34,837 nt of DNA from a virus. Positions 1,832-31,127 of the stretch are shown piece by piece. Where the stretch lies: positions 1-34,837 of IMG/VR virus record IMGVR_UViG_3300048904_000088. One strand, 5' to 3'. The position numbers and the translations under genes are program-made. The notes under the pieces are model-generated. The model had not been told where the DNA came from. It worked only from the letters and a program-made list of their open reading frames with translations, and ran no database searches. Numbering within the stretch: position 1 is the first letter of the stretch; every line of letters begins with the position of its first letter.

Positions 1832-3748
1832 TTATAAAGAGAAAAATGCAACTAGGTTGCTCATTACTGCATCCTCCTCAATCGTGGACAATGAACCGTC
1901 ATAAATCACAATTGCCGCAACATCTGCATCCAATGCGTATGTGCCCTCTGGCCTTGCACCCACAACCAACTGGTAATTTCCTAACCCATTTGTGTTATTT
2001 GAATTGTTTGTACCAGGCAACGGGGCTCCAGACGCGCCCAAATTATCTCTAATTATGATCTCATTTGTTGATGCGATCTTATCAATTTTTGACAGGTAAA
2101 CTTTCTTTGAACTTGCCACAGTTGGCAACCATGTTGTGACAAATCCAACGTTTCCTTTTAACCTTGTGTAAAATCTCTCCGCTATTGCTCCGCTTGGGCC
2201 TTGCAAATTCTGCTCAAATCCATCTGTAAGCAATCCGTAAAATGCATTACCATAGGTTAATATTGTGCCAATACCCGGTGCCCCTGGCCACCTTAAAACA
2301 ACAAATATTTGAGCCTTTGACGCTGGCCACAATGCGCCGCTTACTGCAGCACTAAGGCTTGCCAATGTTCTGTAAATACCGTGTGAGGGGCTTGTTGCGC
2401 TGGGGCTTGGCGGGAATCGTATTGCGGCCTGCACACCAAATTGAGCTGGCACATATTGCGCTGCATTACCAGACACCAGCGGCAAATGGTTTCCATTTCC
2501 TGAAATGTCCTGAATTGCCGTTATGTCCAATCCGGCCCGCGTCAACAATGAAACGTGCCCGAAATACCCGGCAACTAATTTGCTATCATATGGCAATGAC
2601 GGTGCCGGAGCGTCTAATGTATCTGTGTCTATGCTAGACGGGTCGCTAGGATATCCTGCGCATACATTCCAAACCGTAATTGTGTAATGCGTTGTTGGAA
2701 TCAAATCATTTATAATAACTGACATATCACCAGTTGCAATGATTCCAGAGTCATAGCCATCCGATCCGGTAACCTGATATTGGTAAACTCCGGTTAACAT
2801 ATCATCTCCCCAGCTAAACGTTATTGAGGTTGGTGTTACGTCATCAAATCCCAAATTAATTACCGGGCTGCATGCTAACTCATCTGTATCAAATTCAACC
2901 GTTGACCATTCGCCAATTGCTCCGTTTGAACACACAGCCCTCACCGTAATTGTGTAATGCGTTCCCTCTGTCAAAACAGGGGCCGTTGCAATTGCCACCA
3001 AATGGGTTGTGACAATTCCGGAATCATACCCATCTGATCCGGTAATCTGGTATTGGTAAAAGTCTGCACCAGGTATTAAATCCCATTCAAATGTTACTTG
3101 GTAATATCCCGCATCGGTAACGGCCAAACCCTCTATTGCTCCGCACGATCCGGAAATGTCATTGAAAATTGGAGAAATGCATTTATCCTCAGTCCGCAAA
3201 TTGTTCCAATCCAATGTGGCTTGGTAAGTCATTATTTCACCTTGACCACGCAACAACACCATATCAGCATTAAACAAGGTCACAATACCATCATTGCCGC
3301 CAAACATGAACCCGCCCATTGTTTCATACCACACCCGGAAATGCTTACCCAATCCCAGGCTCATGATAAACTCATGGTTAGTTTGGTTAACGTCATCAAT
3401 GGTTGCATGGATAACGTGATCTTTTCGCACCGTCACCTTTCTCCCTCCGGAGATAACGGCCCGCTTTGCTGTTGGTGCCGGCTTGTCACCGATTACCCAC
3501 AAAGTGCGTATGGCATCAATTGCCGTTCCCGTCTGGGTTAAACGAAAACTCCACTCCGCACCATTTGACCAATCAACAAACGGCATTGCACCAACCCGTG
3601 CAATAAAAATCCTCCTTATTTCGGAGGCTCTAATGTCTGGGGCACAGAAATTAAAATCAGTTTGTGGCAATGATTCAGAATTGCAAACCGGGCTCCCAAA
3701 TAGGTGCAAAAAATGCTTTGCTGCTGACTGAGAAATGAGCTTTATCAT
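1832..3748 (-). CDS. Leader-bearing tail-protein paralogue with two FnIII domains and a lectin-like domain
   Basis: A 638-residue probable virion protein that likely binds host surface glycans. Residues 1-18 form the shared leader (MIKLISQSAAKHFLHLFG). Residues 19-200 are clearly paralogous to the protein at 3822-4715: both have SLPxxDFxFCxP, GDKPAPT/N, ISGGRK, RKDHxIxATxDxV and GGFMFGGNxGI. Two fibronectin type III-like repeats follow (about 205-293 and 295-388), each carrying YQYQ[IV]TGSDGYDSGI and HYTITV. Residues 395-638 look like a LamG/concanavalin-like domain (DISGNGNHLPL near its start, QLVVGARPEG and DVAAIVIYDGSLS near its end). The gene lies behind a strong terminator, so it is probably made in small amounts from read-through. 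That fits a minor, decorated version of a tail protein. Confidence 0.75.
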   Translation of the reverse strand: MIKLISQSAAKHFLHLFGSPVCNSESLPQTDFNFCAPDIRASEIRRIFIARVGAMPFVDWSNGAEWSFRLTQTGTAIDAIRTLWVIGDKPAPTAKRAVISGGRKVTVRKDHVIHATIDDVNQTNHEFIMSLGLGKHFRVWYETMGGFMFGGNDGIVTLFNADMVLLRGQGEIMTYQATLDWNNLRTEDKCISPIFNDISGSCGAIEGLAVTDAGYYQVTFEWDLIPGADFYQYQITGSDGYDSGIVTTHLVAIATAPVLTEGTHYTITVRAVCSNGAIGEWSTVEFDTDELACSPVINLGFDDVTPTSITFSWGDDMLTGVYQYQVTGSDGYDSGIIATGDMSVIINDLIPTTHYTITVWNVCAGYPSDPSSIDTDTLDAPAPSLPYDSKLVAGYFGHVSLLTRAGLDITAIQDISGNGNHLPLVSGNAAQYVPAQFGVQAAIRFPPSPSATSPSHGIYRTLASLSAAVSGALWPASKAQIFVVLRWPGAPGIGTILTYGNAFYGLLTDGFEQNLQGPSGAIAERFYTRLKGNVGFVTTWLPTVASSKKVYLSKIDKIASTNEIIIRDNLGASGAPLPGTNNSNNTNGLGNYQLVVGARPEGTYALDADVAAIVIYDGSLSTIEEDAVMSNLVAFFSL

Positions 3749-3762
3749 AAAAAATTTATTTG

Positions 3763-3794
3763 AAAAAAGGGGCTGTAATTTTCATTACAACCCC
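3763..3794 (-). terminator. Rho-independent terminator between the two tail paralogues
   Basis: On the minus strand an 11-base stem (GGGGTTGTAAT pairing with ATTACAGCCCC, one G-U pair) with a short loop is followed by six T residues. It sits just after the gene at 3822-4715 and before the start at 3748. No promoter box is seen between it and the downstream start. Confidence 0.85.
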
Positions 3795-3821
3795 TCAATA
3801 ATAGTAAAAATATACGGTCAA

Positions 3822-4715
3822 TTATGCAAACAATACGTCACCGCTTGCAATTGTGCCGGAGTGTGAAACGCCCAGCGCATCCGTAAACCTGAAAGGCATA
3901 CCCAGGAAGTCAGCAAACATATTGCACGTTAATTTCAACACACCACCAACTTTAATTGTCATGACAATGCCGCCCGTGTCAATAAGCGGGTTGATGTCGG
4001 TGTATTCAAATTTAGCCACCGCATTTGTTCCACCGGCCAATGCGAAGTCACAAGCACCTTGTGTTGGCGTTGCGTCATCTGCAAACGTAACCATTGTATC
4101 AAATGAAGTTGTGCCCAGGAGCGTTTGACCAAATATTGGTGACGTGCAACGTTGCTCAGTTGTCGGAGAAACCCATGTTATGACGTAAGCATAAGACATT
4201 GTTTCACCATTACCCCGTGGCAACACCATATCACCAGATATTTCAATTGCAATACCTGAGTTGCCGCCAAACATAAAGCCTCCAGCGGTTTCATACCACA
4301 TTTTGAAACGCTTGCCGGATTCAACGGCCTGCAAAAATGCGTGGTTTGCGTCTGTCACCTCATCAACCGTTGCGTTGATAGTGTGATCTTTCCGGGTGTT
4401 GTGCTTACGGCCTCCGGAAATGTCTTTTTTGGTGGTGTTGGGTGCGGGCTTATCTCCTATAACGGTAAGGCAACGGATTGCATCAATGTCCGTTTCCGTT
4501 TCGCTCACGCGCTGCTCCCACTCCTCTGCTTGCTCCCAATCGTCGAAATCAGCGGCTCCAACTTTGGCCAAAAATATGCGGGTGATCTCTGACAACTTCA
4601 CCTCCGGATCACAGAAATCAAAATCAACTGGAGGCAACGTTTCAGCCGCACACGAAGGGGTGCCGCCAATATGCACATACCTCCGGTTTACAAAAGCTAA
4701 AAATGTACGTTTCAT
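3822..4715 (-). CDS. Leader-bearing tail (tube-like) protein, short paralogue
   Basis: A 297-residue probable virion structural protein. Residues 1-18 are the shared leader MKRTFLAFVNRRYVHIGG, followed by a core (19-200) that is also the N-terminal part of the 638-residue protein downstream. The core is beta-rich, and GKRFKMWYETAGGFMFGGNSGI followed by LPRGNGETMSYAYVITW resembles tail-tube-type folds, though I cannot prove this. Residues 200-297 look like a small Ig-like add-on. The gene is read after the tape measure and a large tail protein, and a strong terminator follows it. A tail tube or distal tail protein is my best guess; a head-surface protein remains possible because the same leader occurs on the capsid protein. 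Confidence 0.65.
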   Translation of the reverse strand: MKRTFLAFVNRRYVHIGGTPSCAAETLPPVDFDFCDPEVKLSEITRIFLAKVGAADFDDWEQAEEWEQRVSETETDIDAIRCLTVIGDKPAPNTTKKDISGGRKHNTRKDHTINATVDEVTDANHAFLQAVESGKRFKMWYETAGGFMFGGNSGIAIEISGDMVLPRGNGETMSYAYVITWVSPTTEQRCTSPIFGQTLLGTTSFDTMVTFADDATPTQGACDFALAGGTNAVAKFEYTDINPLIDTGGIVMTIKVGGVLKLTCNMFADFLGMPFRFTDALGVSHSGTIASGDVLFA

Positions 4716-4787
4716 AAAAAAATTTTATTGGGTTAACTCAATGCTGTAAATGTAATCTGTTTTTCCTAATAACTAAAATGCGGGGCA

Positions 4788-6059
4788 TTAACAACTTGGA
4801 GACGGTGTACTCAATGCACTCTCCACGGTTGTATCAAAAGAGAATGTTGAATATGTCACCTTAAATTGAGTTGCACCAACACCACCGGGGATTGAACCGC
4901 TCCAACCGGTAACGCTGATAATTTCGGCTCTGGGGATATAGGAAACACGCAACACCCACGCCCCGGCCCCGGTCTTACTCCATAACCTTGCAAAATACCC
5001 TGCTGTAAATCCGGTTGTGAGCTTAGCGGTTACGCCTCCGGAGGGCTCACAATATGTTGTCACCAATGTTTGGCCTCCACCGCTTGGCGGGTCTACTGGT
5101 GCCGGCTCATCCATTGCTTGCTCACATGACGTTGTGGCCAAAAGGCTCATTTGCTCAAATGTTACTGTTACTTGGGAATATGCTTCATCGCTTGTTCCGT
5201 CATGTGTAACATCAATATTTTTTAACTCACCTCTCCTTAATGCTCGATCCGTTATTAACTCTTTATAATCATGTATCTGCATTACATACAACGCAACCTT
5301 TATAAAATCAGGCACCAAAGCCGACAATTTATATTTTATCGCGGCCTTTTGAAAAGTTGGGATTAACTCATTATTACCATCTCTCTCTCCCTCAATTTCC
5401 ACCTCTGGCTCACTTGCTGTAATGAATGAATCTAAGTATAAAAGATTATAAAAAGAACCATCACCAGGATAATGAAGTGGTGACAAATCGGAATTGTGAT
5501 ACCATTTAAATATCACCGCCTCACAATTCAAATCCGATTCACCCCATCCAAAACGTTTCTCCGGAACCCTAAAAATTTCGCTTGTAAAGTACCCATTGAA
5601 TGGAGCCGCTGGGCTAATGCCATCAACTGGCACAATCCCCAAAACCGGATCAACGATACCTTGCGTAAATTTCATTTCCATATAGTACAAACCAGGCTCC
5701 AAATCAATGGCCGCTGTAATCCCTGCATTGGTGGCATTTTTAAACATGAAATAATCTTTCCCGTCCAATGTGCCCCACTCCAAATATGTGGGTGATAAAA
5801 ATGAACTGAGGTCAACTGCCACCGCGTCCTCAAATCCATCCAAATAATCCTGCATTGTGGCATCCTCACATGCCTTTTTTATTTTCCAATGCACCGGCAC
5901 CTCTGAGGTTGGTTGCTTGAAAAACTGGAAAGGCAAGATACCGTTGTAAGGTGCCAATTGCGCAAAAACCATGTCTTTGGAGACATGGTTGCGCAAACGA
6001 TCCTGTTGAAAAATTCGTGGATACCACGGTAACGAATTTGGTAAATTATTGAATAACAT
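4788..6059 (-). CDS. Tail protein of unknown role (post-tape-measure)
   Basis: A 423-residue protein starting 5 bases after the tape measure stop, so it is co-transcribed and probably coupled. It is rich in aromatic residues and beta-prone segments, with a Pro/Gly hinge near residues 322-332 (PAPVDPPSGGG) followed by a compact Ser/Thr/Gly-rich C-terminal domain of about 90 residues that looks Ig-like. In siphoviruses the gene just after the tape measure usually encodes the distal tail protein, and that is the likely role by position. I do not recognise a family signature. It lacks the N-terminal leader carried by the next two tail genes. Confidence 0.6.
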   Translation of the reverse strand: MLFNNLPNSLPWYPRIFQQDRLRNHVSKDMVFAQLAPYNGILPFQFFKQPTSEVPVHWKIKKACEDATMQDYLDGFEDAVAVDLSSFLSPTYLEWGTLDGKDYFMFKNATNAGITAAIDLEPGLYYMEMKFTQGIVDPVLGIVPVDGISPAAPFNGYFTSEIFRVPEKRFGWGESDLNCEAVIFKWYHNSDLSPLHYPGDGSFYNLLYLDSFITASEPEVEIEGERDGNNELIPTFQKAAIKYKLSALVPDFIKVALYVMQIHDYKELITDRALRRGELKNIDVTHDGTSDEAYSQVTVTFEQMSLLATTSCEQAMDEPAPVDPPSGGGQTLVTTYCEPSGGVTAKLTTGFTAGYFARLWSKTGAGAWVLRVSYIPRAEIISVTGWSGSIPGGVGATQFKVTYSTFSFDTTVESALSTPSPSC

Positions 6060-6064
6060 AACGG

Positions 6065-9000
6065 TTAGTTTTTACGGATTTTAATTTTCTTTTTTCCTTT
6101 AATAACAACATCAAAGCCGTTTTCCTCATACTTAATTTCACGCTGCTCATTCTGCCTCACCAAAGTTTGTATGCCCTTATCAATGCTGGCAAGCTCCATT
6201 GGCTTTTCGCTATGGCTGGAATGGATTACGGTATTATTGATAAATGCCGTATGTTCCCGGCCCTCCTTAATAGCTCCTGCCAATTCCTCATCTAGAGCCA
6301 TGTGAACACCCAAACCGCTCAACATACTACGCATTTCACGGTCTGACATTGATTCAATTTTGTTGTTGTTGATAACCTCCAGCAACGGCATAAATTTCTC
6401 CGTCTGTCTCTTTGCGGTCACAAACTCACCCTCCTCCAGCTCCATCACACCGGCATTGCGATCCGGGGAGAAATATTTTTGCCCGCCCTCTGCGTGTGAC
6501 TTACCCCCGATCATACCACCATCACCAAATTGTTGAGGTTGTATTGCCTCATATGTCTGGGCCTTTGAAATAACAAATGCCGTCAACATTGCAGTAATTG
6601 CAGCAATGGCCACCGGCACCGCAAACGGCCCTCCAATGGCTGTTGCTTGCAACATAATGTTGGTTGACGCTGTAATGAGGTTTGCAGCCTGCAACGCTGT
6701 CTGTGCGTCTGCCTGTGCCTTTTGGCTTTTCTGCAACTCCTGCTGGTATGCCTCCTGTTGTTTCAAATCCTCCTGCCTTGATTGCTCTTTGGCGTTCATT
6801 TGATCCAATATCCCCTGTATATTGGAGGCATAACCGGCATCACGCAACGCAATCTCAGCTTGCAAACGGCTCCGCAAATCGTCCAATTCTTGGTTGTCCT
6901 GGTCAATTGCCGCTTGCTTGGCATCAATCATTTTTTGGTAACGATCCTGAACCAATTTGCTGTAACTGTCCACCGCTTGCCCTATGGAGTTGAACATGCT
7001 GGAGACTTGTTGCGTTGCAAAATCCAGCTCCTTTTGGCTGGCACCCGGCAATAATAAGCTCATCACCGTTTGCGGAGGAGTATTGCCAACGGCCTGTTGC
7101 AATCCCTGCTTTGCAGCATTCACCCGCGCCTCTGCATTTGCCAATTCCTGCTCCGTGGCTGCATCACCGGATTTTTTCAGTAAATCCAATTGTTTCTGGG
7201 CCGCGCTCAACTCCTCCTTAAGAATTTCAATGTTCTTAAGTGCAATGATCCGGTTGCTCTGGGTGGCATACAACTTATTTTCATTGATTAAGTTGACGTT
7301 TTTTTGTTTCTCCAGCTCAATTTGTTTCAACCCCTGCTCCTTTTCCACCTGGAGGCTGTCATGTTCCAATTGGAGCATTACAGCATTAATTGCTTTCTCC
7401 TGATTCTCTTTGGTGAGGTTCTTTGCGGAAATTGCATTTATCTCTGCCTCTGCTGCCAATCGTAGCTGCTCCAATCGCTTTTCCGTGCTGTCTTTCTCCA
7501 ATGCAAGCAACTGTTGCTGTATTTCGTAATCAAATGCAATTTGCTGGGCACGGTACTTTTTCCGCACCTCCTCCGCTGCAATCTCTCCCTCCTCTGTTAC
7601 CTGGGCTTTGAGGGCATTGATTGTTTTGCCTTGCTGTTGCTCCAGCGCAATTTGTTGGTTCAATCCCTCAATGCGTAATGCAATCACATCTTTGTCCGCT
7701 TCACCGGCAACGCTCAACTCAATCTGGGCCTCTTTGCGCTGCTCCTGCAAGTTTCTCAACCGGGCTCCGTGTTCCTGATCTAGTGCCGCAATCTTGTCTG
7801 CAACTCCCTTTTTAATGGTGGCAATCTCTTTATCTTGCCCGTCCTTCATTTCTGCAATTTTGGAGGCTTGAATGTCATTAGCATATGCACGGGTTTGTTG
7901 CAAAATGGCCCGCTCCGCTTCACCGTTGGCAAAACGTTGTTTCAACGTGTCCAATTGCAGCTTTGCCAATTCCTCTTTCTTTTCCCGCTCCATCTTTATG
8001 CGATCCACATTTATTTGGGTTGCAGCGTTCAAACTGTCTTTCTCCAATTTGTCTATGCGATCCAGTATTTTTTGCCGGGTTTCTGCATAATTTTTATCAT
8101 TGGTGTCTAGTGCCAACGCCGTGCGGTATGCGTCCTCTATGGCCAATTTATTATCCGAAATCTGAGCGTTTAACCTGTCAATTCCTATTTGTGTCAAAAC
8201 TGACTGATTCCGTTTGAGTGCGTTGGCCTCTGCCTCCTTTACTTTCAACCGCCTGTCAGTAATGGCAATGTCCTCCTCCAAAAACTTTTGCTGGGCCTCC
8301 AACAACCTGTTTGCCTCCTCAGTTGACAACCCCACCTCCTTTTGCGCCTGGGCAAATTGATATAATGCAATTGCCGCAACCGCCAACACCGCAATGATTG
8401 CCGTGAGCGGGTTGGCAAGTAATGCCGCTGTCCAACTTTCCGTGGCCACGGTTGCCGCTTCAACTGCAACCGTGTTTGCTTCGGTAACTACTGTTGCAAC
8501 TTCATTTGTGGTTGTGGCAACCGCTTGCGCCTCCGTCTCCGCTACCGTGGCCGCTGTCTCCTCCGTAATGGCCGTTGTGTGAGCTTGCCGTGCGTATGTT
8601 TGGAGGTAAACGGACAATGCGGAATCTTTGTTGAGAACGTTGGCCACCTCCTGAATACCTTGTAAAATGGCCATTGCGCCCTGCACCTTTTGAATGGCCT
8701 TTGCTGCCTCCTCACTTTGCTCACCAAAAGCCGCCAATGCACCTTGACCAATAGCGAATGCACCGGCCAATCCCCGCACCGCTGTAATACCCGCATCCAA
8801 TCCTTTGGTGTCCGATGCTAACCGGGCAATGCGTTGTGAGGTGTCCCCCAACTGATCCTGCAACTCACCGGCCCTTTGTGACAGCTCAATGAATTGCTCC
8901 GTGTTGCCTTGCCCGGCCAACTCCATTGCCGCCAATTCCATACGCATTTCACGCAACTGCGTCCGCAAACTTTTCACCCGTGGCTCTGCCTGATCCGGCA

Positions 9001-9592
9001 CCGGATCAACCTTTGGTATTTTTGAAAGGTCTGCAACAACCTCTGTTGCATCCTCCATGAGAACATTTAAAAATTTGTCGGCCTCCTGAATTTGTTTGCT
9101 CAATGTGGCAAACGCCGGTGTGCCCTGGCTCAATCCGGCCAACTGTTTCTTTGCCGTCTCCAGAATAAGGGCAAATCCCTCCGTTTGGGTTTTGGCTCCT
9201 TTGAGCTGGTTGGTTAAAAGGTCAATTGAACTTTTATCAATATTGAAACGGAAATCAACCGGCTTTCCTATGGCATCACGCATTTTTGCAACGAATGATC
9301 CCAATTTTTCAGTAATGCCGTTGGTGTTGATCTTATCCGGTGAAAATGCCTTTTCCAAATCGGTGCCGGCCTGCTTCGCGGCTGTCTGGAGCTTTTGCGC
9401 TGCCTCTGCACCTTGTCCCAACTTGGCGTTGAGGGCATCACTATTTTTTGCAGCTTGCCCCAATGCATCACTCATTTGGGTTGTGGCCTGCTTTGCAGCC
9501 GTGGTAACACCGGCCAATCCCTCCTCAATTTCCGTGAACCCGGTTAAAATCCCTCTGGTGTCAATCCCCAATGGGAGCATGAAATTTTCCAT
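6065..9592 (-). CDS. Tail tape measure protein
   Basis: A 1175-residue protein that sets tail length and is threaded through the tail tube. Long Ala/Glu/Lys/Gln-rich coiled coils span about 20-370 and 415-960. A hydrophobic segment at about 385-412 (LLANPLTAIIAVLAVAAIAL) and another at about 970-1008 are typical of tape measures and could insert in the host membrane. The C-terminus has the Gly-rich GGMIGGKSHAEGG motif near 1027, then MELEEGEFVTAKRQTEK, often seen at the end of such proteins. It follows the frameshifting chaperone pair, the standard synteny. At about 1.5 Angstrom per residue (established rule of thumb) the tail would be roughly 170-180 nm. A terminator and a promoter-like box lie just upstream. 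Confidence 0.92.
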   Translation of the reverse strand: MENFMLPLGIDTRGILTGFTEIEEGLAGVTTAAKQATTQMSDALGQAAKNSDALNAKLGQGAEAAQKLQTAAKQAGTDLEKAFSPDKINTNGITEKLGSFVAKMRDAIGKPVDFRFNIDKSSIDLLTNQLKGAKTQTEGFALILETAKKQLAGLSQGTPAFATLSKQIQEADKFLNVLMEDATEVVADLSKIPKVDPVPDQAEPRVKSLRTQLREMRMELAAMELAGQGNTEQFIELSQRAGELQDQLGDTSQRIARLASDTKGLDAGITAVRGLAGAFAIGQGALAAFGEQSEEAAKAIQKVQGAMAILQGIQEVANVLNKDSALSVYLQTYARQAHTTAITEETAATVAETEAQAVATTTNEVATVVTEANTVAVEAATVATESWTAALLANPLTAIIAVLAVAAIALYQFAQAQKEVGLSTEEANRLLEAQQKFLEEDIAITDRRLKVKEAEANALKRNQSVLTQIGIDRLNAQISDNKLAIEDAYRTALALDTNDKNYAETRQKILDRIDKLEKDSLNAATQINVDRIKMEREKKEELAKLQLDTLKQRFANGEAERAILQQTRAYANDIQASKIAEMKDGQDKEIATIKKGVADKIAALDQEHGARLRNLQEQRKEAQIELSVAGEADKDVIALRIEGLNQQIALEQQQGKTINALKAQVTEEGEIAAEEVRKKYRAQQIAFDYEIQQQLLALEKDSTEKRLEQLRLAAEAEINAISAKNLTKENQEKAINAVMLQLEHDSLQVEKEQGLKQIELEKQKNVNLINENKLYATQSNRIIALKNIEILKEELSAAQKQLDLLKKSGDAATEQELANAEARVNAAKQGLQQAVGNTPPQTVMSLLLPGASQKELDFATQQVSSMFNSIGQAVDSYSKLVQDRYQKMIDAKQAAIDQDNQELDDLRSRLQAEIALRDAGYASNIQGILDQMNAKEQSRQEDLKQQEAYQQELQKSQKAQADAQTALQAANLITASTNIMLQATAIGGPFAVPVAIAAITAMLTAFVISKAQTYEAIQPQQFGDGGMIGGKSHAEGGQKYFSPDRNAGVMELEEGEFVTAKRQTEKFMPLLEVINNNKIESMSDREMRSMLSGLGVHMALDEELAGAIKEGREHTAFINNTVIHSSHSEKPMELASIDKGIQTLVRQNEQREIKYEENGFDVVIKGKKKIKIRKN

Positions 9593-9613
9593 AGCTAAAA
9601 CAATTGTGTGTCA

Positions 9614-9621
9614 TAAAGATA
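9614..9621 (-). promoter_or_regulatory. Promoter-like -7 box for the tape measure gene
   Basis: TATCTTTA on the minus strand matches TAnnTTTG at all fixed positions except the last. It lies 21 bases before the ATG at 9592 and just after a terminator hairpin. A TTG lies 17-18 bases upstream as a possible -33 element. The call rests on the same layout recurring at other junctions in this window. Confidence 0.4.
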
Positions 9622-9630
9622 TAAAAATAT

Positions 9631-9655
9631 AAAAGCCCCAATGGTTGGGGCTTTT
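9631..9655 (-). terminator. Terminator between tail chaperone and tape measure
   Basis: A perfect hairpin, AAAAGCCCCAA with TTGGGGCTTTT around a 3-base loop, followed on the minus strand by TTTTATATTTTTA. It starts 2 bases after the stop of the 9657-9878 frame. It is symmetric enough to work in both directions. Confidence 0.8.
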
Positions 9656-9656
9656 A

Positions 9657-9878
9657 CTAACTCTTATTGTTGCGTGATCTGTTGCGGGCATTCTCATCTT
9701 TGATCCGTTGCAACCACAAATCATAAATGCCCCAGAAATCCAAAACGTCTAATGCAATTATGCGGTTATACTCATCAATTGAACCGTTGGCCATTTTAAA
9801 CCACAACTCAACCCAGCTCTTTTTGATCTTTTTTAATTCTGCTTCGGGGTGGAGGGGCTTGTTGTCTGCTCCGGCCAA
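9657..9878 (-). CDS. Tail assembly chaperone, -1 frameshift extension (GT-type)
   Basis: A 73-codon frame overlapping the end of the 200-residue gene by 46 bases in the -1 frame. It has no ATG: its first possible start is a TTG, and that TTG is exactly the first codon read after a -1 slip on the heptamer at 9878-9884. I therefore read it as the T part of a G-GT tail-chaperone pair made by programmed frameshifting; the fusion would have about 259 residues (186 from the first frame plus 73). The encoded segment is amphipathic and charged (AELKKIKKSWVELWFKM, then LQRIKDENARNRSRNN). Its place just before the tape measure is the conserved location of such pairs. Independent start at TTG is possible but less likely. 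Confidence 0.75.
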   Translation of the reverse strand: MAGADNKPLHPEAELKKIKKSWVELWFKMANGSIDEYNRIIALDVLDFWGIYDLWLQRIKDENARNRSRNNKS

Positions 9879-10435
9879 TTTCCCCGTGGGCTCATTTCTA
9901 AGGCTGCGTTGATTACGGTTTGGGCCACCTCCATTTTTTCCAAAATGTTTTGGGTAAAGCTGGTATAGAGTTCGGTGAATCCAGGTACTATAATCAACGC
10001 AATAGCGAAAAAATCATGAGTATCTATGCCGGCCCTTTTCCAATCCTCCAATTTCTGCACCACCGTATCATTTCCCCATTGCGTCCTATCCTCTTCTTTC
10101 GTGTTCACGCATAGGGTGCAAATTTTGAGCATGGTTGGCTCTTTCTCTTTGAGCTTCACCATATGATTCAAAAGTTTGTCCGCATGCACCGCTGCGTCCG
10201 CAAACCTTACTTTGTTGAGCAATTCCCGCTGGGTAATCATGGCCTCATAAATTTGCTCTAAGGTCATACCCATTTGCAACTCCCTCTGGAGAATCACAAA
10301 CTCACAGTAACGGCCAATTGGCAAACGTGTCTCCAGATAGTACGTTTTCCCGTTGGCCTCAAATTGGCCTGCTTTAAAGTCTATCCGCTTAAGGGCTCCC
10401 AGGCTGTCCCAATTGCTGGTGTCAATTTTCTGCAT
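9833..10435 (-). CDS. Tail assembly chaperone (G-type), zero frame
   Basis: A 200-residue protein placed two frames before the tape measure, the standard site of the tail assembly chaperone that binds the tape measure while the tube polymerises. It has a beta-rich N-terminus (FKAGQFEANGKTYYLETRLP) and a largely helical remainder with LNHMVKLKEKEPTMLKICTLCV. The last 14 codons are disposable: the slippery heptamer GGGAAAT lies at codons 184-186, and about a tenth or fewer of ribosomes would be expected to shift into the 9657-9878 frame (family knowledge, not measured here). The ATG at 10435 overlaps the upstream membrane gene by 14 bases. Confidence 0.75.
   Translation of the reverse strand: MQKIDTSNWDSLGALKRIDFKAGQFEANGKTYYLETRLPIGRYCEFVILQRELQMGMTLEQIYEAMITQRELLNKVRFADAAVHADKLLNHMVKLKEKEPTMLKICTLCVNTKEEDRTQWGNDTVVQKLEDWKRAGIDTHDFFAIALIIVPGFTELYTSFTQNILEKMEVAQTVINAALEMSPRGNWPEQTTSPSTPKQN
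9878..9884 (-). promoter_or_regulatory. -1 frameshift slippery heptamer GGGAAAT
   Basis: In the zero frame the ribosome reads G GGA AAT; after a -1 slip it reads GGG AAA and continues with TTG GCC GGA into the second frame. This is the X XXY YYZ form and differs from the lambda G-T site (GGGAAAG) only in the last base. The shifted frame is open for 73 codons. No clear stimulatory stem-loop was identified by eye downstream. Confidence 0.75.
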
Positions 10436-10778
10436 CGTTTTTTCGTTGTATTTGATTAATGATAAATGAAATTATGACGGTAAAAATAATAGCTGATCCA
10501 ATGGTGAGCAAGTGGCAAAGGAGATTGTAATGCCGCCAATGGTACCTGATATAAAGCCACAACGCCAATTGCCCGGCAAAACATTTCTCACAGCCCCAAA
10601 TGGGCCGGTAAAACCACCGCTCCACCTCAACGTTGTTCACAACCTTAATCCCTACCTTTTGACCGATTACAAACCACCAATTGGCCACGCGCTCATTGGG
10701 GAGGATCACCAACAACACCGTTGAGAATATTGAGCAACAAAGGCCCAGATAAAGGGCCAAATTAAAGTTGTGAATCAT
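10422..10778 (-). CDS. Small membrane protein with CxxC motif
   Basis: A 118-residue protein with hydrophobic segments at about 5-26, 63-80 and 85-110. A short cytoplasmic-type loop between them contains WGCEKCFAGQ, a CxxC pair after a Trp-Gly. It overlaps its upstream neighbour by 4 bases and its downstream neighbour by 14, so it is translated as part of the connector/chaperone cluster. A membrane protein inside a tail-assembly gene cluster is unusual. I recognise no family and propose no function. Confidence 0.6.
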   Translation of the reverse strand: MIHNFNLALYLGLCCSIFSTVLLVILPNERVANWWFVIGQKVGIKVVNNVEVERWFYRPIWGCEKCFAGQLALWLYIRYHWRHYNLLCHLLTIGSAIIFTVIISFIINQIQRKNDAEN

Positions 10779-11398
10779 TGTACAAAGTTGAGTTGTTTAA
10801 AACAGGTTTGAGACACCCAAAATTTACATTGCAAGTCAAGGGCAAAATATTCATATGGGGGCCGGAGATATTGCAATTCTGCCTCATCGTAATTGTAACG
10901 GGAAAATATATTGGCATCTTGTATTGGCACCCCTGCAAGCGTCACAAACAACCGGGAAATGCCAATTGTTGAGTTGATCCCCGTGCCCTTTACCAAACGG
11001 GCCACGATCTCAGAAATAAAGTTGGCCGTTACCTCCTCATATTTCGGCATATCTCCCTCCAGAATCTTTTGCCGGTTCACCCAGCAAACCAGACGTAACC
11101 GGGACACCACCGCCAATTGGCCGGCCTTTACTTTCGCGCCGGTGTCTGGAGTGGTTCCAAAGTCCTCAAAGTAAAGTATGCCTTTCTTTGTGCCATCTGG
11201 CACCAACGCCCGCTCTCCCATGCCGTCCTCAATATCATAGGACACCGGCAATTTCTTTTGGATTTTCTGGGCCTGCTGATCCGTTCCGGCCTCTGCATAC
11301 CTTGTATCAATGACGGGTTGGGCAAGCCCTGCAACCGTGTGCAAAAAGGGCAAATCAACCAACATGCCCTTTAAAATGTTTGATAGTTCCTTTACCAT
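10775..11398 (-). CDS. Probable tail-terminator/tail-completion protein
   Basis: A 207-residue protein between a head-tail-joining-type gene and the tail chaperones, the usual location of the tail terminator. It has no membrane segment, and the mixed alpha/beta sequence opens with MVKELSNILKGML. The internal segments LAVVSRLRLVCWVNRQKIL and LQYLRPPYEYFALDLQCKFWVSQTC are consistent with a small beta-sheet protein of that class. I cannot identify a named family. It ends by overlapping the membrane protein at 10422-10778 by 4 bases. Confidence 0.55.
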   Translation of the reverse strand: MVKELSNILKGMLVDLPFLHTVAGLAQPVIDTRYAEAGTDQQAQKIQKKLPVSYDIEDGMGERALVPDGTKKGILYFEDFGTTPDTGAKVKAGQLAVVSRLRLVCWVNRQKILEGDMPKYEEVTANFISEIVARLVKGTGINSTIGISRLFVTLAGVPIQDANIFSRYNYDEAELQYLRPPYEYFALDLQCKFWVSQTCFKQLNFVQ

Positions 11399-11401
11399 AT
11401 A

Positions 11402-11965
11402 CTAAAAACCGTTGTTTTTAAAGATAAGTTGGATTTGCTCCAACATTACCTGAGTTAAAATTTTGATCTCCTCCGGCCCCAATGACTTGCCCAGGTAATC
11501 CCCGTACCTGTCACGGTTCCAATTCATCTTGTTAACAACCTCCGCTGAATTGCCACCCAGCGGGCAAACAATTTGCCCCTCTCCTTTGTAGTATGGAGTT
11601 TGCGGCCCCATTCCGGCCCACATCTTATTGGTAAACCCCAGGTCAACATGATCTGTTGGCAAACCCTCCGCTCTCCGGAGGTCGGCCCACGTCATGCCGG
11701 TTTCCTCTCCGTCCTTCGCGGCCTCATCCTTTTTTTTGACGCTCTCAATGTATGCGGCACCGGCATTGCTCTTTTCCTTGCCGTCAAAAAACCACGCTGG
11801 CAACTTGTTACCAGAATACATTGCGCCAAAGCCTTGTTGCCTAATTTTCCGCTCAATGAGGGCTTTGGCCGTTATCGTGTTCAAACGGGAAAGGTCAGGC
11901 AAGGAATTTAATATTTCCTGCCTGACCTTTTGCAACCGCCTCTGTAAATCGTTGAGGTCTGCCAT
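11402..11965 (-). CDS. Head-tail joining/virion morphogenesis protein
   Basis: A 187-residue protein whose centre reads TWADLRRAEGLPTDHVDLGFTNKMW; the pattern LRRxxGLxxxHVDLxxTxxMW resembles small phage head-completion or virion-morphogenesis proteins. The ATG at 11965 overlaps the stop of the previous gene by one base (TAATG). A near-perfect inverted repeat lies in codons 12-26 (11890-11930). The gene order capsid, unknown structural gene, this gene, tail-terminator candidate matches a head-tail connector segment. Role inferred from motif and order. Confidence 0.55.
   Translation of the reverse strand: MADLNDLQRRLQKVRQEILNSLPDLSRLNTITAKALIERKIRQQGFGAMYSGNKLPAWFFDGKEKSNAGAAYIESVKKKDEAAKDGEETGMTWADLRRAEGLPTDHVDLGFTNKMWAGMGPQTPYYKGEGQIVCPLGGNSAEVVNKMNWNRDRYGDYLGKSLGPEEIKILTQVMLEQIQLIFKNNGF
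11890..11930 (-). repeat. Long inverted repeat within the start of a coding sequence
   Basis: Arms AAAGGTCAGGC and GCCTGACCTTT pair perfectly over 11 bases, then continue through AGGAA/TTCCT with a single bulge, leaving a loop of about 7 A/T bases. The structure falls 35-75 bases after the ATG at 11965. No T run follows it, so it is not a simple terminator. Confidence 0.7.
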
Positions 11966-13059
11966 TAGCTGTAAATTGTACCTTTTACAATCTTATCCTC
12001 TTTGCAAGTGTAACAATTGGTTTCTCCCAATGTGAGGTTGTTGGCAATGGCTGTAATACGATCCTCATATTCTTTCCGGAAATGGTTGCGCTTGCCCCAT
12101 AGGTACTCACGATTTTGCAAGTTCACCCGGTTAACCTGGGCACCCTTAAAAATGTACTCAATCCAAAGCTCCCCGGCCTTGTATCTGGTGGCCCACGCCA
12201 TCATTTGTTGTATGGCCTCCTGTTTGTCGTATTCGCGGCACACAACGGTGTCTGTGTCGCAACCAACCTCCATTGAAACGGAAAAGCCATGCCCCCTTTC
12301 GTCTGCTGTAACGTTGTGTAAACGCTGGGTGTCGCTGAATGCAACGCCTTTGTAAGTCATGTATGCATTTAACGCTCTGGTTAAATCCCGCCCGTTGCAT
12401 GAGCCGCACCGGATATTGTTATTTTTCGGCATCAACCCTCCGGCCTCATTGCGATCATAGAAAATCCAGTATTCCAGCGGGTGGCCGTCCTCCTCCATTG
12501 GTAAGGTAATGCCGCCCTCCGGCATGGTGGCGTTTGTCCACGATCCGGCAACGGTTGTGATCTCCAGCGTGTGCAATGGCTCATCAACGAAACTCATATC
12601 TTTTGCATACACCTTATGAATGTACACATTGAACGTTGCGGCACCATTGAGACAAAGGGAAATTGCATTGATTTTGATATTGCCGGCAATGGCCTCGATC
12701 ATGCGGTATCTTTGGCCCTGATATTGTCCGCTTGTGTGCAATACCCCAGACACGGAGCGTTGCCCCACTTGCCCGTTGAACTTAATTTTTGCAGGCTGGA
12801 AACGGCTATTGATTGCCAAAAGTAAATCCGCTTTCAGGCTCTTTTGGGCCTCCGTTTTCGCGTCCAATGCTGACTGCAACGCAAACTCCATTGATTCCTG
12901 TGTATCTATGGCCATAAGGTCAATGCCGCCCGGCAATGCATCCATAAACAAGTCAGAATTGGAAACGGCAATTGCGGCTTGCATTTCCTCACTTAGCTCA
13001 TTGTAGAATGGAATGGAGGCGTTGTTGGTAACGCCAATAATATCTGTAATGCAGTCCAT
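11965..13059 (-). CDS. Conserved structural protein following the capsid gene
   Basis: A 364-residue protein. The frame is open to 13134, but I choose the ATG at 13059 because a terminator and a well-formed promoter lie between 13078 and 13117, which would place the longer start outside the transcript. It has a beta-rich centre with many aromatic residues, a CGSC pair near residue 220, several other Cys residues, and a C-terminus ending in TNCYTCKEDKIVKGTIYS. The N-terminus MDCITDIIGVT and the position right after the capsid suggest a virion protein of the head-tail or tail region. No family is recognised with confidence. Its TNCYTCK heptapeptide is also found in the lipoprotein at 28033-28296. 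Confidence 0.6.
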   Translation of the reverse strand: MDCITDIIGVTNNASIPFYNELSEEMQAAIAVSNSDLFMDALPGGIDLMAIDTQESMEFALQSALDAKTEAQKSLKADLLLAINSRFQPAKIKFNGQVGQRSVSGVLHTSGQYQGQRYRMIEAIAGNIKINAISLCLNGAATFNVYIHKVYAKDMSFVDEPLHTLEITTVAGSWTNATMPEGGITLPMEEDGHPLEYWIFYDRNEAGGLMPKNNNIRCGSCNGRDLTRALNAYMTYKGVAFSDTQRLHNVTADERGHGFSVSMEVGCDTDTVVCREYDKQEAIQQMMAWATRYKAGELWIEYIFKGAQVNRVNLQNREYLWGKRNHFRKEYEDRITAIANNLTLGETNCYTCKEDKIVKGTIYS

Positions 13060-13077
13060 AATGGTTAAATGTTTTCT

Positions 13078-13109
13078 CAAATGTATAATAAAAAACCCGG
13101 CACCGCAAA
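13078..13109 (-). promoter_or_regulatory. Bacteroidota-type promoter upstream of the connector operon
   Basis: On the minus strand TTTG (13109-13106), 20 bases, then TACATTTG (13085-13078), an exact TAnnTTTG box. The ATG at 13059 follows 18 bases later. The -33 TTTG falls in the loop of the terminator hairpin, so terminator and promoter are nested. Confidence 0.65.
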
Positions 13110-13117
13110 GTGCCGGG
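13090..13117 (-). terminator. Terminator after the major capsid gene
   Basis: The hairpin CCCGGCAC with GTGCCGGG around a 6-base loop is followed on the minus strand by a run of T residues. It lies about 25 bases after the capsid stop codon. Confidence 0.88.
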
Positions 13118-13142
13118 CTTTCCCCTAAATTCACAAAGGTTC

Positions 13143-14249
13143 TTATGCTGTTACCTTGTAACCATAAATACCTGTTGGCGTGTACTCCGTGCCGTCAATT
13201 GTTTGAGGGCATGGTGTTGGGTTCAGGAATATACCTCCACGGGTAATAAACCTCCAGGTGTGTATATCACGGCCCGCATTACAGCTCATTGTGTAAATGA
13301 CATCGTAATAAACGCCGGGGAGAATGTTGGATTTGTAGCGGAAACGGGTTTGGTTGATCTTACCGCGCTTTTCCACCGGGGCATCCGTGTAACGTGTGTA
13401 CGTGTTCATTGAAACCGCATTGCGATCCACTAAGAACATATTTTCAGCAACACCGGCTCCGGTAAAGTTCCACATATCGAAATTCAAATCAATTTTCGAT
13501 TTGCGGAGGTCGTTGCCCTTGCCGTCAAGGTTTCCACCGTCTAATCCTGCGTTCATCCACTCCTCAAAGAAAGTGCCATCCTCCAGGTAAAAACCACTTT
13601 CGGCCATGTTAAGCTGCATTTGCTTAATGAGGTTGGCAACCATACCCATTTTGTAAGACGCTGCCGGGATCAAAGAGCGGGTATTGGCCGCATCCCACGT
13701 AAATGGTGAGGAGCGGTTGGCAATAACCGGAATGTTTGGCCCCATGTTGGCTTTGTAATATGCAATGATCTGGCGTGTCCACCATTCGCTCAACTGCTTA
13801 TCAGCTTTGAGGAAACCGTGTGCCACTTGCTCCACGCGCTCATACATGTTTGTACGAATTTTTTCATCATCAACCGAAAAGTCAAACTTTTGGCTCATGG
13901 TCATTTCATACTCCTTGCTGTCGCTCTCCAGCTCTGGGCCTTCGATGTCGCAAACGTCCGTTGTCTGGTCGAAATCGTCCGTGTCCAAACCGCACGATTT
14001 TATCCAGGTAAGGTTTACAATGTTGTCTTTGTCTGGGTTGTTAAGCTCCTGCACACGGGCCGTTTGCTTTTCCAGTTGAGTAATTGCAGCGTCACAATGG
14101 GGTTTGATGTCATCGGTAAATTTACCCTCTGCCCATTTCTCCTCTGCTTTCAATTTGTACTCCAGAATTTCCGACTCATCGAAATCTCCAGCGGCACCGG
14201 CTACGTGTACATATCTCCGGTTAACGAAAGGCAAAAAAAGTTTTTTCAT
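13143..14249 (-). CDS. Major capsid protein with N-terminal leader
   Basis: A 368-residue protein identified as the main head shell protein by its place after the portal, minor head and scaffold-like genes, its length, and a composition typical of HK97-fold capsids without membrane segments. Residues 1-18, MKKLFLPFVNRRYVHVAG, are the leader also found on four other virion genes. Residues 20-75 are acidic and helical (DESEILEYKLKAEEKWAEG), a plausible delta-like or scaffold-contacting segment. The C-terminal half is beta-rich, with TRFRYKSNILPGVYYDVIYTM. No promoter lies directly upstream, so it is transcribed with the two preceding leader-bearing genes; a strong terminator follows. Confidence 0.78.
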   Translation of the reverse strand: MKKLFLPFVNRRYVHVAGAAGDFDESEILEYKLKAEEKWAEGKFTDDIKPHCDAAITQLEKQTARVQELNNPDKDNIVNLTWIKSCGLDTDDFDQTTDVCDIEGPELESDSKEYEMTMSQKFDFSVDDEKIRTNMYERVEQVAHGFLKADKQLSEWWTRQIIAYYKANMGPNIPVIANRSSPFTWDAANTRSLIPAASYKMGMVANLIKQMQLNMAESGFYLEDGTFFEEWMNAGLDGGNLDGKGNDLRKSKIDLNFDMWNFTGAGVAENMFLVDRNAVSMNTYTRYTDAPVEKRGKINQTRFRYKSNILPGVYYDVIYTMSCNAGRDIHTWRFITRGGIFLNPTPCPQTIDGTEYTPTGIYGYKVTA

Positions 14250-14290
14250 AAAAAAGTTGTGTGTTAAAAATTGGGTTAAAAAATGGCTCC

Positions 14291-15274
14291 TTACTTTTTG
14301 CCGTTTTCGCTTCGGTAAGTGTCCATTACAACACGCTTTTGTTCAGGCTTTAAATCTCCCCTGTCCATTATCGCGGCCAATTCTGTTGCGTTCTTTGGTT
14401 TCGTTACTCCAGCCGGATAAGCCGCGCCGCCGCCTGCTCCTCCTTTGCTTTTGTCTGCACCGCCTGCTCCTCCTGGGTTTGCACCGCCGTTGTTAGCGGC
14501 AAAATCAAAATGAGTTGTGGCGATTGCTTTAACGTGTTCCGCAAAATCCAACGTGTGACCGTGTTGATCTTGTTGTAATGCACCGTCCTTTGACACTAAA
14601 ATTTTTCCGTCTTTCTCCTCATAGTCGAAACCAGAAAGTGAATTGAGGAAAGTCTTTTTTTGCGTCTCCGCTACTGTGGCATTTGTTGAAAAAACCGGGT
14701 TCAGGCCGGTGAGCAATGTCATTGCGCTCTCTCCAACTTTGCTGAATGTTGAGGCTTTGGCATGCTCCGTTTTAATTTGGGTCACTTCGTCCGTGTGGGC
14801 CTTTTTAGCGTCTGCCACTTGCTTTTTCCAAATGGCCTCCTGCTGCTGAAAGAAAGAGGATTTTTTAATGTCCTCATCATTTTTTGCGGCACCTTCACCG
14901 GCCTTTTTGCTTATGATTTCGTCCATAAGCTCAATGCCGATTTTGTCAGATTCAACCCCGTAATGCTCCTTTAATTCTTTTTCGCGCTGTGTAAGCCCTT
15001 CGGATTTCCCTTTGTTTTCACCCTCTTTGAGCTTGCCTTTGGCCGCTTCAATTTGGATTTTTTTGACCCTTTCCACATCATGAGCTTTTACAGCATCAAT
15101 TGCGGCTTGTGCCGTGGTTCCGTCCTTTAGAATTTCGGAGATTGTATTTGCATCCAGCTTATAGACTGTGGATAAAAGTCCGGTAAGAATCTCCGTGCTA
15201 TCGGGTGCGCCCCCGTCACCAAAAACGTGTGTGAATCTTGATGAAGCAAAGAGTAATTTGGCCGTGTATTTCAT
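14291..15274 (-). CDS. Probable capsid scaffolding protein with variant leader
   Basis: A 327-residue, Lys/Glu/Ala-rich protein with long predicted helices and coiled coil (about 80-180), a typical scaffold profile, directly upstream of the capsid gene where scaffolds are encoded. Residues 1-19 (MKYTAKLLFASSRFTHVFG) are a divergent form of the shared leader, one residue longer. A Gly/Ala-rich linker (about 262-290) precedes a short basic C-terminal helix (LKPEQKRVVMDTYRSENGKK) that could contact the capsid. A TACTTTTG box sits only 3 bases before the ATG, too close for a normal leader RNA. The scaffold role is inferred; no family is recognised. Confidence 0.6.
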   Translation of the reverse strand: MKYTAKLLFASSRFTHVFGDGGAPDSTEILTGLLSTVYKLDANTISEILKDGTTAQAAIDAVKAHDVERVKKIQIEAAKGKLKEGENKGKSEGLTQREKELKEHYGVESDKIGIELMDEIISKKAGEGAAKNDEDIKKSSFFQQQEAIWKKQVADAKKAHTDEVTQIKTEHAKASTFSKVGESAMTLLTGLNPVFSTNATVAETQKKTFLNSLSGFDYEEKDGKILVSKDGALQQDQHGHTLDFAEHVKAIATTHFDFAANNGGANPGGAGGADKSKGGAGGGAAYPAGVTKPKNATELAAIMDRGDLKPEQKRVVMDTYRSENGKK

Positions 15275-15339
15275 AACAAAAGTATTTTGTTGTGTTGAAA
15301 AAATGAAAAAAAGTTTTTTTGATGTTGGTATGCCGGGAA

Positions 15340-16137
15340 TTATTTGCCCGCTGGTTTGCCGTTGTTGGCTTTGCCGTTAGGCTTTGCCGGTGTCTTTTTA
15401 GTTGATCCGTTTGCCGCTGGAGCTGCTGGTGCCGCTGCTGTTTGCTTTGCCGCCTTTGCCTCTGGCATTTCCTTTGCGATCTCAACCCAGCCGGATTTGT
15501 TGTTGCCCAACGTCACCCATGTTTGCCTGGAGAAAGTGCGGAATTGCGGTTGCTTATGGCCTTTGAGTTGGCGTTTCGCGTCCACGTAATCCGGGCCGTG
15601 CAATGCCACCTTTGCCTCATGATCTGCCAACGCTTGCTCCTCTGCACTCAGCGGTGCCGGTTTGTTGCGGTCTGCAATGATCTCCTCCGCACGGGCAATT
15701 GTGCGCTTTGCTGGCTCCAGCAAGTGCGGGTTGTTGGCCAACTGAATTGCACCGTTCTCAATGTCCTCCTCACTTGGAGTTGGGATTGTGGTTGCTGGCT
15801 CCGTAACCTCCGGCTCCGGTGTTTCCTCTTTCACAACTGGCTCCTCTGGTGCGGGTGTAACAACTGGCTCTGGAGTTGTCACCGCTGGCTCAACCGGAGC
15901 GGGTGTTTGGCCGTCACCGTTTTGTTGCTCTGGAGCTGGTGTTGCTCCGTCTCCCTCCTTCGGGCCTTTGTCGGCATCTGCTTCACCGTCCTCTCCCTGG
16001 TCTTTGTCCTTATCCTTTTGCTCCTCCTGCTCCTTTTTTTCCTGCTGGGATTTCTGGAGGGCTTTTGCGGCATCGTCTACATTACCGGCAACGTGTGAAA
16101 ACCTCCGGTTGGTAAACGGTAAAAAAATCTTTTTCAT
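15340..16137 (-). CDS. Leader-bearing head-region protein with long acidic/Pro-rich linker
   Basis: A 265-residue protein. Residues 1-18 (MKKIFLPFTNRRFSHVAG) are nearly identical to the capsid leader. A highly charged Lys/Glu/Asp stretch (about 28-65) and a Pro/Glu/Thr/Val low-complexity linker (65-125) follow. A small domain spans about 130-225 (EEQALADHEAKVALHGPDYVDAKRQ, then FRTFSRQTWVTLGNNKSGWV), and the C-terminal tail is Lys/Ala/Pro-rich. The TWVTLGNNKSGWVEI core resembles a tiny beta domain. Position before the scaffold suggests an internal head protein, a decoration protein or a co-scaffold. It opens a transcription unit with its own promoter. Confidence 0.6.
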   Translation of the reverse strand: MKKIFLPFTNRRFSHVAGNVDDAAKALQKSQQEKKEQEEQKDKDKDQGEDGEADADKGPKEGDGATPAPEQQNGDGQTPAPVEPAVTTPEPVVTPAPEEPVVKEETPEPEVTEPATTIPTPSEEDIENGAIQLANNPHLLEPAKRTIARAEEIIADRNKPAPLSAEEQALADHEAKVALHGPDYVDAKRQLKGHKQPQFRTFSRQTWVTLGNNKSGWVEIAKEMPEAKAAKQTAAAPAAPAANGSTKKTPAKPNGKANNGKPAGK

Positions 16138-19325: not shown

Positions 19326-19910
19326 TTATTGCACCGGCTCCGGCTTACGGTAATACTCATAAACCTTATCAACCTGAAATTTGTCTTTTATCCTGTATTC
19401 CGGATCAACGTTGTGCAACAATGAGGTGTGGGTGACATCAATGTAAAAGTGCTTTGGCGTAAATGGGAAATTGACGAATTGGCGGGAATGAACCACCGTG
19501 CCGTTTGGCCCCTTCACCGATCCCGTGAACGTGCGCCCGCTTTTCTCTTTGAACACAATTGCATCTAGGTAATAAGCCGGCCCATTCTCTCCAACCTTGA
19601 AAAGTTGCGGGCACCGCTTGTTTTGAAATAGCTGCTCCGGGTTGTCTGTAACCTCAACCCACTCCTCCGGTGTGCCCTCAATTGGGCAAATGGCTTTGTA
19701 GGTAAAGAGCTGTTTGATTGCGCCGGTAATAACGGCAATGGCTGCTTTGGCATGCTCCTCATTGTCCACGGTCAACCCAAACTTTTCTGCAAGGGCCAAA
19801 ATTTCCGGAATGAATGGAGCAATAATTGGTTGGTGATCCGGCCCAACGTTGGCCGCTGCCTGCATCAGAATTTCAAACTCTGTTTTTGCAAAATCGTGTG
19901 TATTTGTCAT
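19326..19910 (-). CDS. Conserved phage protein between terminase and portal
   Basis: A 194-residue protein with a helical N-terminal half and a beta-rich C-terminal half. The signature AICPIEGTPEEWVEV, then LFQNKRCPQLFKVGENGPAYYLDAIVFKEKSG, then VNFPFTPKHFYIDVTHT recalls a widespread uncharacterised phage family (CPxxGxxEW, QNxRCxxxFK, AYxxDxIVF). Its location between large terminase and portal suggests a head or packaging function. It is bounded downstream by a terminator, so it can be expressed apart from the portal operon. The function is unknown. Confidence 0.6.
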   Translation of the reverse strand: MTNTHDFAKTEFEILMQAAANVGPDHQPIIAPFIPEILALAEKFGLTVDNEEHAKAAIAVITGAIKQLFTYKAICPIEGTPEEWVEVTDNPEQLFQNKRCPQLFKVGENGPAYYLDAIVFKEKSGRTFTGSVKGPNGTVVHSRQFVNFPFTPKHFYIDVTHTSLLHNVDPEYRIKDKFQVDKVYEYYRKPEPVQ

Positions 19911-30623: not shown

Positions 30624-31127
30624 TTAAATTAAATGGCCGCTCTCCTCCGGAACAAATGCAACAAATTGGTTGTGCCTGTCGCTGAAAAGGAGGCTCACGG
30701 AAATGATGTGATAATTTTTAATAAACCAAAGAATTTCCACCTCAAACACCTCCTCCTCACAACTATCAACAACATACCACTTTCCCGTTGCAAGGTTGCG
30801 AATTAAGCCCAGGTAATGCAACGCTCCGGAGGGCCGTGCAAATGAAATCAGGTATGGCACCAATCCTGAATCCATGCCCTCCATCTTGTCAGAAAAGAAA
30901 GATACATTGGCCTTATCAAATCGGTTGCCCACGCGAAACTCCAGCTTTGTGAGGAATAGCGGATAAATTGACAACCCGCCCTCTGATAGCTTTTTATTCA
31001 AATCCACCAAAGCCTCCCCGTCCTCCGTGGGGAGCTTGGCAATAAATTCTTTCTCATTGAATAAGTTGGCAAGAGTGTACGATCCACACCCAAATTGAGT
31101 TGTTTGCCTGAATGGAATTTTTTTCAT
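30624..31127 (-). CDS. C39/papain-like cysteine peptidase
   Basis: 167 residues. The N-terminus reads MKKIPFRQTTQFGCGSYTLA, with candidate oxyanion Gln 8 or 11 and catalytic Cys 14 in QxxCGxxxLxN, the usual start of C39-type peptidases. His 104 lies in GALHYLGLI and Asp 121 in KWYVVDS, 17 residues later, giving a full Cys-His-Asp set with normal C39 spacing. There is no signal peptide, transporter or membrane domain, unlike bacteriocin-export C39 enzymes. C39 enzymes cut after Gly-Gly-type leaders (established), which suggests a link to the Gly-ending leaders on five virion proteins here. A tail-tip peptidoglycan or host-targeted protease is the main alternative. Followed by a large tail gene. 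Confidence 0.6.
   Translation of the reverse strand: MKKIPFRQTTQFGCGSYTLANLFNEKEFIAKLPTEDGEALVDLNKKLSEGGLSIYPLFLTKLEFRVGNRFDKANVSFFSDKMEGMDSGLVPYLISFARPSGALHYLGLIRNLATGKWYVVDSCEEEVFEVEILWFIKNYHIISVSLLFSDRHNQFVAFVPEESGHLI

Follow-up and report, generated by a model that had tools for sequence, protein, structure and literature searches.

The stretch of viral DNA analyzed here (34,837 nucleotides of the IMG/VR record IMGVR_UViG_3300048904_000088, hereafter the window) contains five virion-module genes whose products start with a common leader of 18–19 residues ending in [RKH][YF]xH[VIL]xG. These are the genes of the major capsid protein (MCP), a scaffold candidate (SC), the acidic head-module protein A16 and two probable tail proteins, B1 and B2. 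By analogy with the capsid targeting sequences (CTS) of phage T4, this leader may be an assembly propeptide removed after its invariant Gly, an explanation to which we assign a probability of about 0.5. All statements on function made here derive from the sequence of one phage, whose host group, like that of its relatives, is Bacteroidota. The five open reading frames (ORFs) and their N-termini, described in an earlier note on the window, are all present on the minus strand, and, as stated there, the proteins are unrelated past the leader apart from the paralogues B1 and B2, which share about 50% identity over the N-terminal domain.

16084..16137, minus strand: leader of A16, MKKIFLPFTNRRFSHVAG, then N
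15340..16137, minus strand: A16, 265 aa, acidic low-complexity head-module protein directly upstream of the scaffold candidate
15218..15274, minus strand: leader of SC, 19 residues, MKYTAKLLFASSRFTHVFG, then D
14291..15274, minus strand: SC, 327 aa; none of its 13 distinct homologues has the leader
14196..14249, minus strand: leader of MCP, MKKLFLPFVNRRYVHVAG, then AAGDF
13143..14249, minus strand: MCP, 368 aa; 12 distinct homologues without leader
4662..4715, minus strand: leader of B2, MKRTFLAFVNRRYVHIGG, then T
3822..4715, minus strand: B2, 297 aa, probable tail protein; leader absent from its homologues in relatives
3695..3748, minus strand: leader of B1, MIKLISQSAAKHFLHLFG, then S
1832..3748, minus strand: B1, 638 aa, probable tail protein with two fn3 domains and a C-terminal region; paralogue of B2

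Leader Motif and Its Confinement to Virion Genes

The window and the IMG/VR contig IMGVR_UViG_3300048903_000141 (50,052 bp) overlap at both ends with 100% identity, and the joined records give a circular map of 53,043 bp. Since the circle is closed by two contigs, the motif could be assessed on an apparently complete genome, represented by 466 ORFs. The HxxG ending is present in all five leaders (residues 15–18, or 16–19 in SC). When N-terminal stretches of 32 residues were searched from every start in every frame, the full pattern matched these five genes of the phage and no others, against 0.043 matches expected (2000 shuffles of N-termini, maximum 1), and it was absent from five other Bacteroidota phages. 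Position-specific scoring matrices built from the leaders with one left out placed the held-out leader always within the top five of the 466 ORFs, the remaining top places being taken by the other four; leaders scored 9.6–27.6 and the best non-leader at most 8.4, with the weakest held-out case, B1, at 9.6 versus 5.3 for the best non-leader. Confinement of the motif to virion-module genes is thus upheld, no non-structural gene being matched by either approach. No internal [RKH][FY]xH[VIL]xG was found in other long proteins of the phage; a looser match lies at residue 33 of a 172-aa protein. Separately, two non-virion proteins (L014:8940-9422 and L015:1732-2112) have similar N-termini of their own (..CTxEQAxxLxxxGI..) and are probably small paralogues; they bear no relation to the leader.

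The leader is short and basic. Position -1 is Gly in all five cases, position -2 is A, A, G, F and F, so that three leaders end in AG or GG and two in FG, and the residues after the Gly show no conservation among the five proteins. The start is basic (MKK), three leaders contain twin Arg and the residue at -1 is small, features that bring to mind a secretion, lipoprotein or Tat signal peptide; this explanation is hardly credible, given that a hydrophobic core is lacking (a Sec h-region takes about 7–15 residues), that merely six residues follow Arg-Arg and that such a signal makes little sense on a capsid protein. The view that the leader is not a Sec signal therefore stands. In MCP, TTG at codon 6 offers the only other start in frame, and the similarity to relatives runs from residue 19, hence its leader must be translated. 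An upstream DNA element read through into the MCP gene was rejected, since past codon 6 no in-frame start occurs before the part of the protein that relatives share.

Conservation at the Level of Protein

Pairwise, the leaders of MCP, A16 and B2 differ by 2–7 synonymous and 4–8 non-synonymous codons out of 18 and are still recognizably similar as DNA, while the DNA of the SC and B1 leaders resembles that of other leaders no more than shuffled sequence does, and the 60 nt upstream are not clearly shared by any pair of leader genes. As both the SC and B1 leader DNA and the upstream DNA set the genes apart, the shared feature is the peptide, and the constraint on the leader acts at the protein level, in line with what the earlier note had concluded from the differing codons. 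The B2 leader is identical to that of MCP at 13 of 18 positions versus about 4 of 18 to that of its own paralogue B1, from which it follows that leaders have been exchanged between genes or have co-evolved across them.

These data bear on two alternatives. The first 18 codons or residues might act on the nascent chain or on translation, tuning initiation or pausing on the strongest late genes: each of the five genes has its own 5′ gap of 41–130 nt, most neighbors being packed within 8 nt, and the starts are A/T-rich. However, the genes for portal, minor head and tape measure proteins also have gaps with no leader behind them, related phages have gaps without leaders, and the unrelated leader DNA of SC and B1 makes an RNA element unlikely, which leaves this explanation improbable. 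Still less probable is a short coding cassette, selfish or carried by recombination, that would have reached gene starts without serving a function. DNA similarity among the A16, MCP and B2 leaders and the proximity of the B2 leader to that of MCP would suit such a cassette, but upstream DNA is not shared, all five copies stand exactly at virion-gene N-termini and the motif is kept where DNA similarity is lost.

Relatives Lack the Leader

Hardly any relatives came up in sequence libraries or by tblastn against known phages. A portal search in Chitinophagales yielded one syntenic prophage, and profiles built from it led to prophages of other Bacteroidota genomes and to IMG/VR contigs; homologues were accepted at profile E ≤ 1e-3 with duplicate records merged. 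This Bacteroidota prophage family (G564, G798, G920, G1073, G1121, G1300 and others) is nearly invisible to Pfam and PHROGs and has a common gene order of portal, minor head, scaffold, capsid and tape measure.

The leader is absent from all capsid (0/12), scaffold (0/13) and B-protein (0/6) homologues, and all-against-all comparison of N-termini within the relatives revealed no shared leader of any other form. Capsid homologues have Met1 opposite Gly18 of the leader in 9 of 12 cases, giving M|AAGDF or M|AAGTF compared with HVAG|AAGDF in the MCP of the window; there is one extra residue in two further cases and four in one. In the closest relative, IMGVR_UViG_3300037071_000975, capsid identity is 44% and the alignment begins at residue 19, as confirmed in the collection scan (N-terminus MAAGTFSPSALLNIQLKAESMWSEGQF versus the leader followed by AAGDFDESEILEYKLKAEEKWAEGKF). 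Scaffold homologues start about six residues past the end of the leader, and B homologues have 6–14 residues ahead of the common region versus 18 in the leader. Because homologues do without it and capsid homologues begin where it ends, the leader is a modular, lineage-specific addition at the ancestral N-terminus, and its removable look, pointed out previously, is borne out to this extent.

A spread beyond this phage, a question raised in the earlier note, found no confirmation. Degenerate DNA patterns detected the leader nowhere else in IMG/VR (1–3 chance matches besides this phage), the 67 matches in GTDB consisted of chance hits, Sec signals and internal stretches of cellular (NAD-epimerase-like) proteins, and contig scans with single proteins returned near-identical copies only. 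On the IMG/VR and GTDB scans, a widespread motif was rejected.

Identity of the Carriers

Support for assigning the 14249 gene to the capsid protein comes from an order of genes kept in relatives (portal, minor head, A16, scaffold, capsid), from homologues and from weak fold matches. An AlphaFold2 (AF2) model from 7 sequences is of low confidence (predicted local distance difference test score, pLDDT, of 44), and its top weak matches are mostly HK97-fold or phage capsid proteins; pLDDT of about 23 over residues 1–20 is consistent with a flexible tail. SC is a scaffold candidate by position and composition. A16 probably has homologues at the same place in relatives, as indicated by position and by the pattern SRQ[ST]WxxL...GWxE[IV] recognized by eye, and profile search found none. 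Of the roles originally proposed, that of the capsid protein was thus strengthened, while B1 and B2 are probable tail proteins, as suggested by gene position and the fn3 domains of B1. B proteins had no match among PDB and PHROGs profiles.

A Proposed Assembly Propeptide and Its Precedents

According to the propeptide explanation, the main self-assembling proteins of the phage, namely capsid, scaffold, the protein adjacent to the scaffold and the two tail-like paralogues, would each have gained a short N-terminal extension. As long as it is in place, this extension would serve as a common recognition tag holding or recruiting subunits in assembly; a peptidase would then cut after the invariant Gly and the leader would be lost, so that the mature proteins would begin at the same point as their untagged counterparts in related phages. 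Recognition, cleavage and the peptidase are what we infer. With Met1 of the relatives aligned to Gly18, the predicted cut in MCP would yield AAGDF, the same N-terminus as expected in relatives after ordinary Met removal. The short and basic leader, with its Gly exactly at the old N-terminus and nothing conserved beyond, fits a propeptide.

In phage T4, the carriers of CTS are internal cargo proteins, and cleavage takes place behind an acidic residue. The CTS comprise 10–19 residues of the internal proteins IPI, IPII and IPIII and are removed by the prohead protease gp21 (PMC9026906). The leader resembles them as a short N-terminal sequence common to several different virion proteins of one phage and in its presumed targeting to assembly with subsequent removal. 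In contrast to CTS, it is carried by MCP, the scaffold candidate, A16 and two tail-like proteins rather than by internal head proteins, and has an HxxG ending and no sequence relation to them. Neither the head module nor the other proteins scanned yielded a match to a protease family. Since the carriers differ, we do not class the leader as a CTS. Several head proteins of SPN3US lose their N-terminal propeptides to a single phage-coded protease, the phiKZ-type gp245, and two of these propeptides, of 20 and 24 residues, are nearly as short as the leader; however, most SPN3US propeptides span 111–254 residues and have no common leader sequence, the substrates are head proteins and the protease is known (PMC10052503), whereas the leader here is common to its carriers and tail-like proteins are included. 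In view of T4 IPI–III and the two short SPN3US propeptides, the earlier note, which named no described phage leader of this form, needs correction: the sharing of a short N-terminal leader by several proteins of a phage is a known arrangement.

Removal after Gly has parallels outside phages. The proteases of vaccinia (I7L) and of adenovirus and African swine fever virus (ASFV) are of different fold and catalytic order. They cut virion precursors after Ala-Gly or Gly-Gly, AG|X or GG|X (PMC1198262), and three of the five leaders end likewise, but two end in FG and the viruses are unrelated. Double-glycine leaders cut by C39 peptidases end in GG, GA or GS with L(-12)xxxE(-8)L(-7) (PMC6363468). 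The leader shares with them the N-terminal location and presumed removal after Gly, and the phage codes for a protein with a C39-like Q-C-H-D pattern; it departs from them in having Gly at -2 in one case of five (B2), in lacking the E and L positions and in being carried by virion proteins rather than exported peptides.

The C39-like protein is the tentative candidate for the peptidase:

30624..31127, minus strand: candidate peptidase, 167 aa, with R-Q-x5-C-G near the N-terminus and HYLGLI...YVVD later, as read from the sequence

It reads MKKIPFRQTTQFGCGSYTLANLF...HYLGLIRNLATGKWYVVD and appears to keep the order and spacing of Q, C, H and D of C39-like (papain-fold) domains, with Gln six residues before Cys-Gly and His followed by Asp about 16–17 residues on; C39 domains of related bacteria follow FPFYRQxxxxxDCG...HFVVVY...VADP. 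Alignment to the C39 profile is weak (21 columns, P=0.006), no match was obtained in Pfam (C39 included), PHROGs or PDB, and the AF2 model from a single sequence (pLDDT 37) is unusable for fold. No relatives of the protein were found, so that both it and the leader are seen in this phage alone, the contigs of relatives being incomplete. We treat its possible role as leader peptidase as a lead only. The fuller proposal, by which a single Gly-cut leader matures head and tail proteins through a recently acquired phage C39-like cysteine peptidase, unlike the serine prohead proteases of known tailed phages, is decidedly doubtful; nothing direct was found in the literature on C39-type proteases in phage maturation or on N-terminal processing in Bacteroidota phages.

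Several points weigh against a propeptide. Scans of the head module and other phage proteins revealed no known prohead protease, and the C39-like candidate is weak, the canonical Gly at -2 occurring in B2 alone. Tail-like carriers would normally be out of reach of a prohead-confined protease, whatever is added to an N-terminus should join neatly at the former start codon, so that the junction is by itself no proof of cleavage, and relatives do without the leader. Above all in light of the tail-like carriers, an uncleaved docking tag is a serious rival, if on balance somewhat unlikely. The leader would then be retained, either binding one partner shared by all its carriers, be it a chaperone, a membrane site or an assembly factor, or mediating contacts among capsid, scaffold and tail. 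Conservation at the protein level agrees with this, no protease is established, and the occurrence on head and tail-like proteins alike is easier to reconcile with a partner in the cytoplasm than with a protease inside the prohead. On the other hand, an invariant Gly precisely at the ancestral junction, with variable -2 and nothing conserved after it, resembles a cleavage site more than a binding motif.

Other Features of the Genome

The break point of the second contig coincides exactly with window positions 25549-25907, a tandem repeat within the gene 25233-26012 that codes for SIGDNT/RIGYNT hexapeptides (left-handed beta helix). Between the terminase and portal genes, 19326-19910 encodes a homologue of Tad3, an inhibitor of type I Thoeris defence (Pfam E 2.7e-18). 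The 728-aa product of 28414-30600 is homologous (E 7e-20) to a 576-aa product adjoining the minor head gene in prophage G564; unlike its counterpart there, this gene is distant from the head module. The product of a likely plus-strand gene amid minus-strand ones (31399-31830) is without a match in Pfam and carries a typical Sec signal peptide (MKHFLLIILACVGLTFAPPAAHA).

Implications

As a kind, the short shared phage propeptide is already known from T4. What appears to be new, in the collections and papers covered, is the set of carriers (capsid, scaffold and tail-like proteins together), the HxxG ending with Gly at -1 and the recent origin in a single lineage. The propeptide explanation makes a precise prediction, namely mature N-termini at residue 19, or 20 for SC. 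If the leader is cleaved, it would represent a maturation scheme that marks capsid, scaffold and tail-like proteins with the same portable tag. It would likewise illustrate clearly how several virion proteins came by a common propeptide within one lineage; such a portable Gly-ending tag would be a useful handle for loading or processing phage particles.

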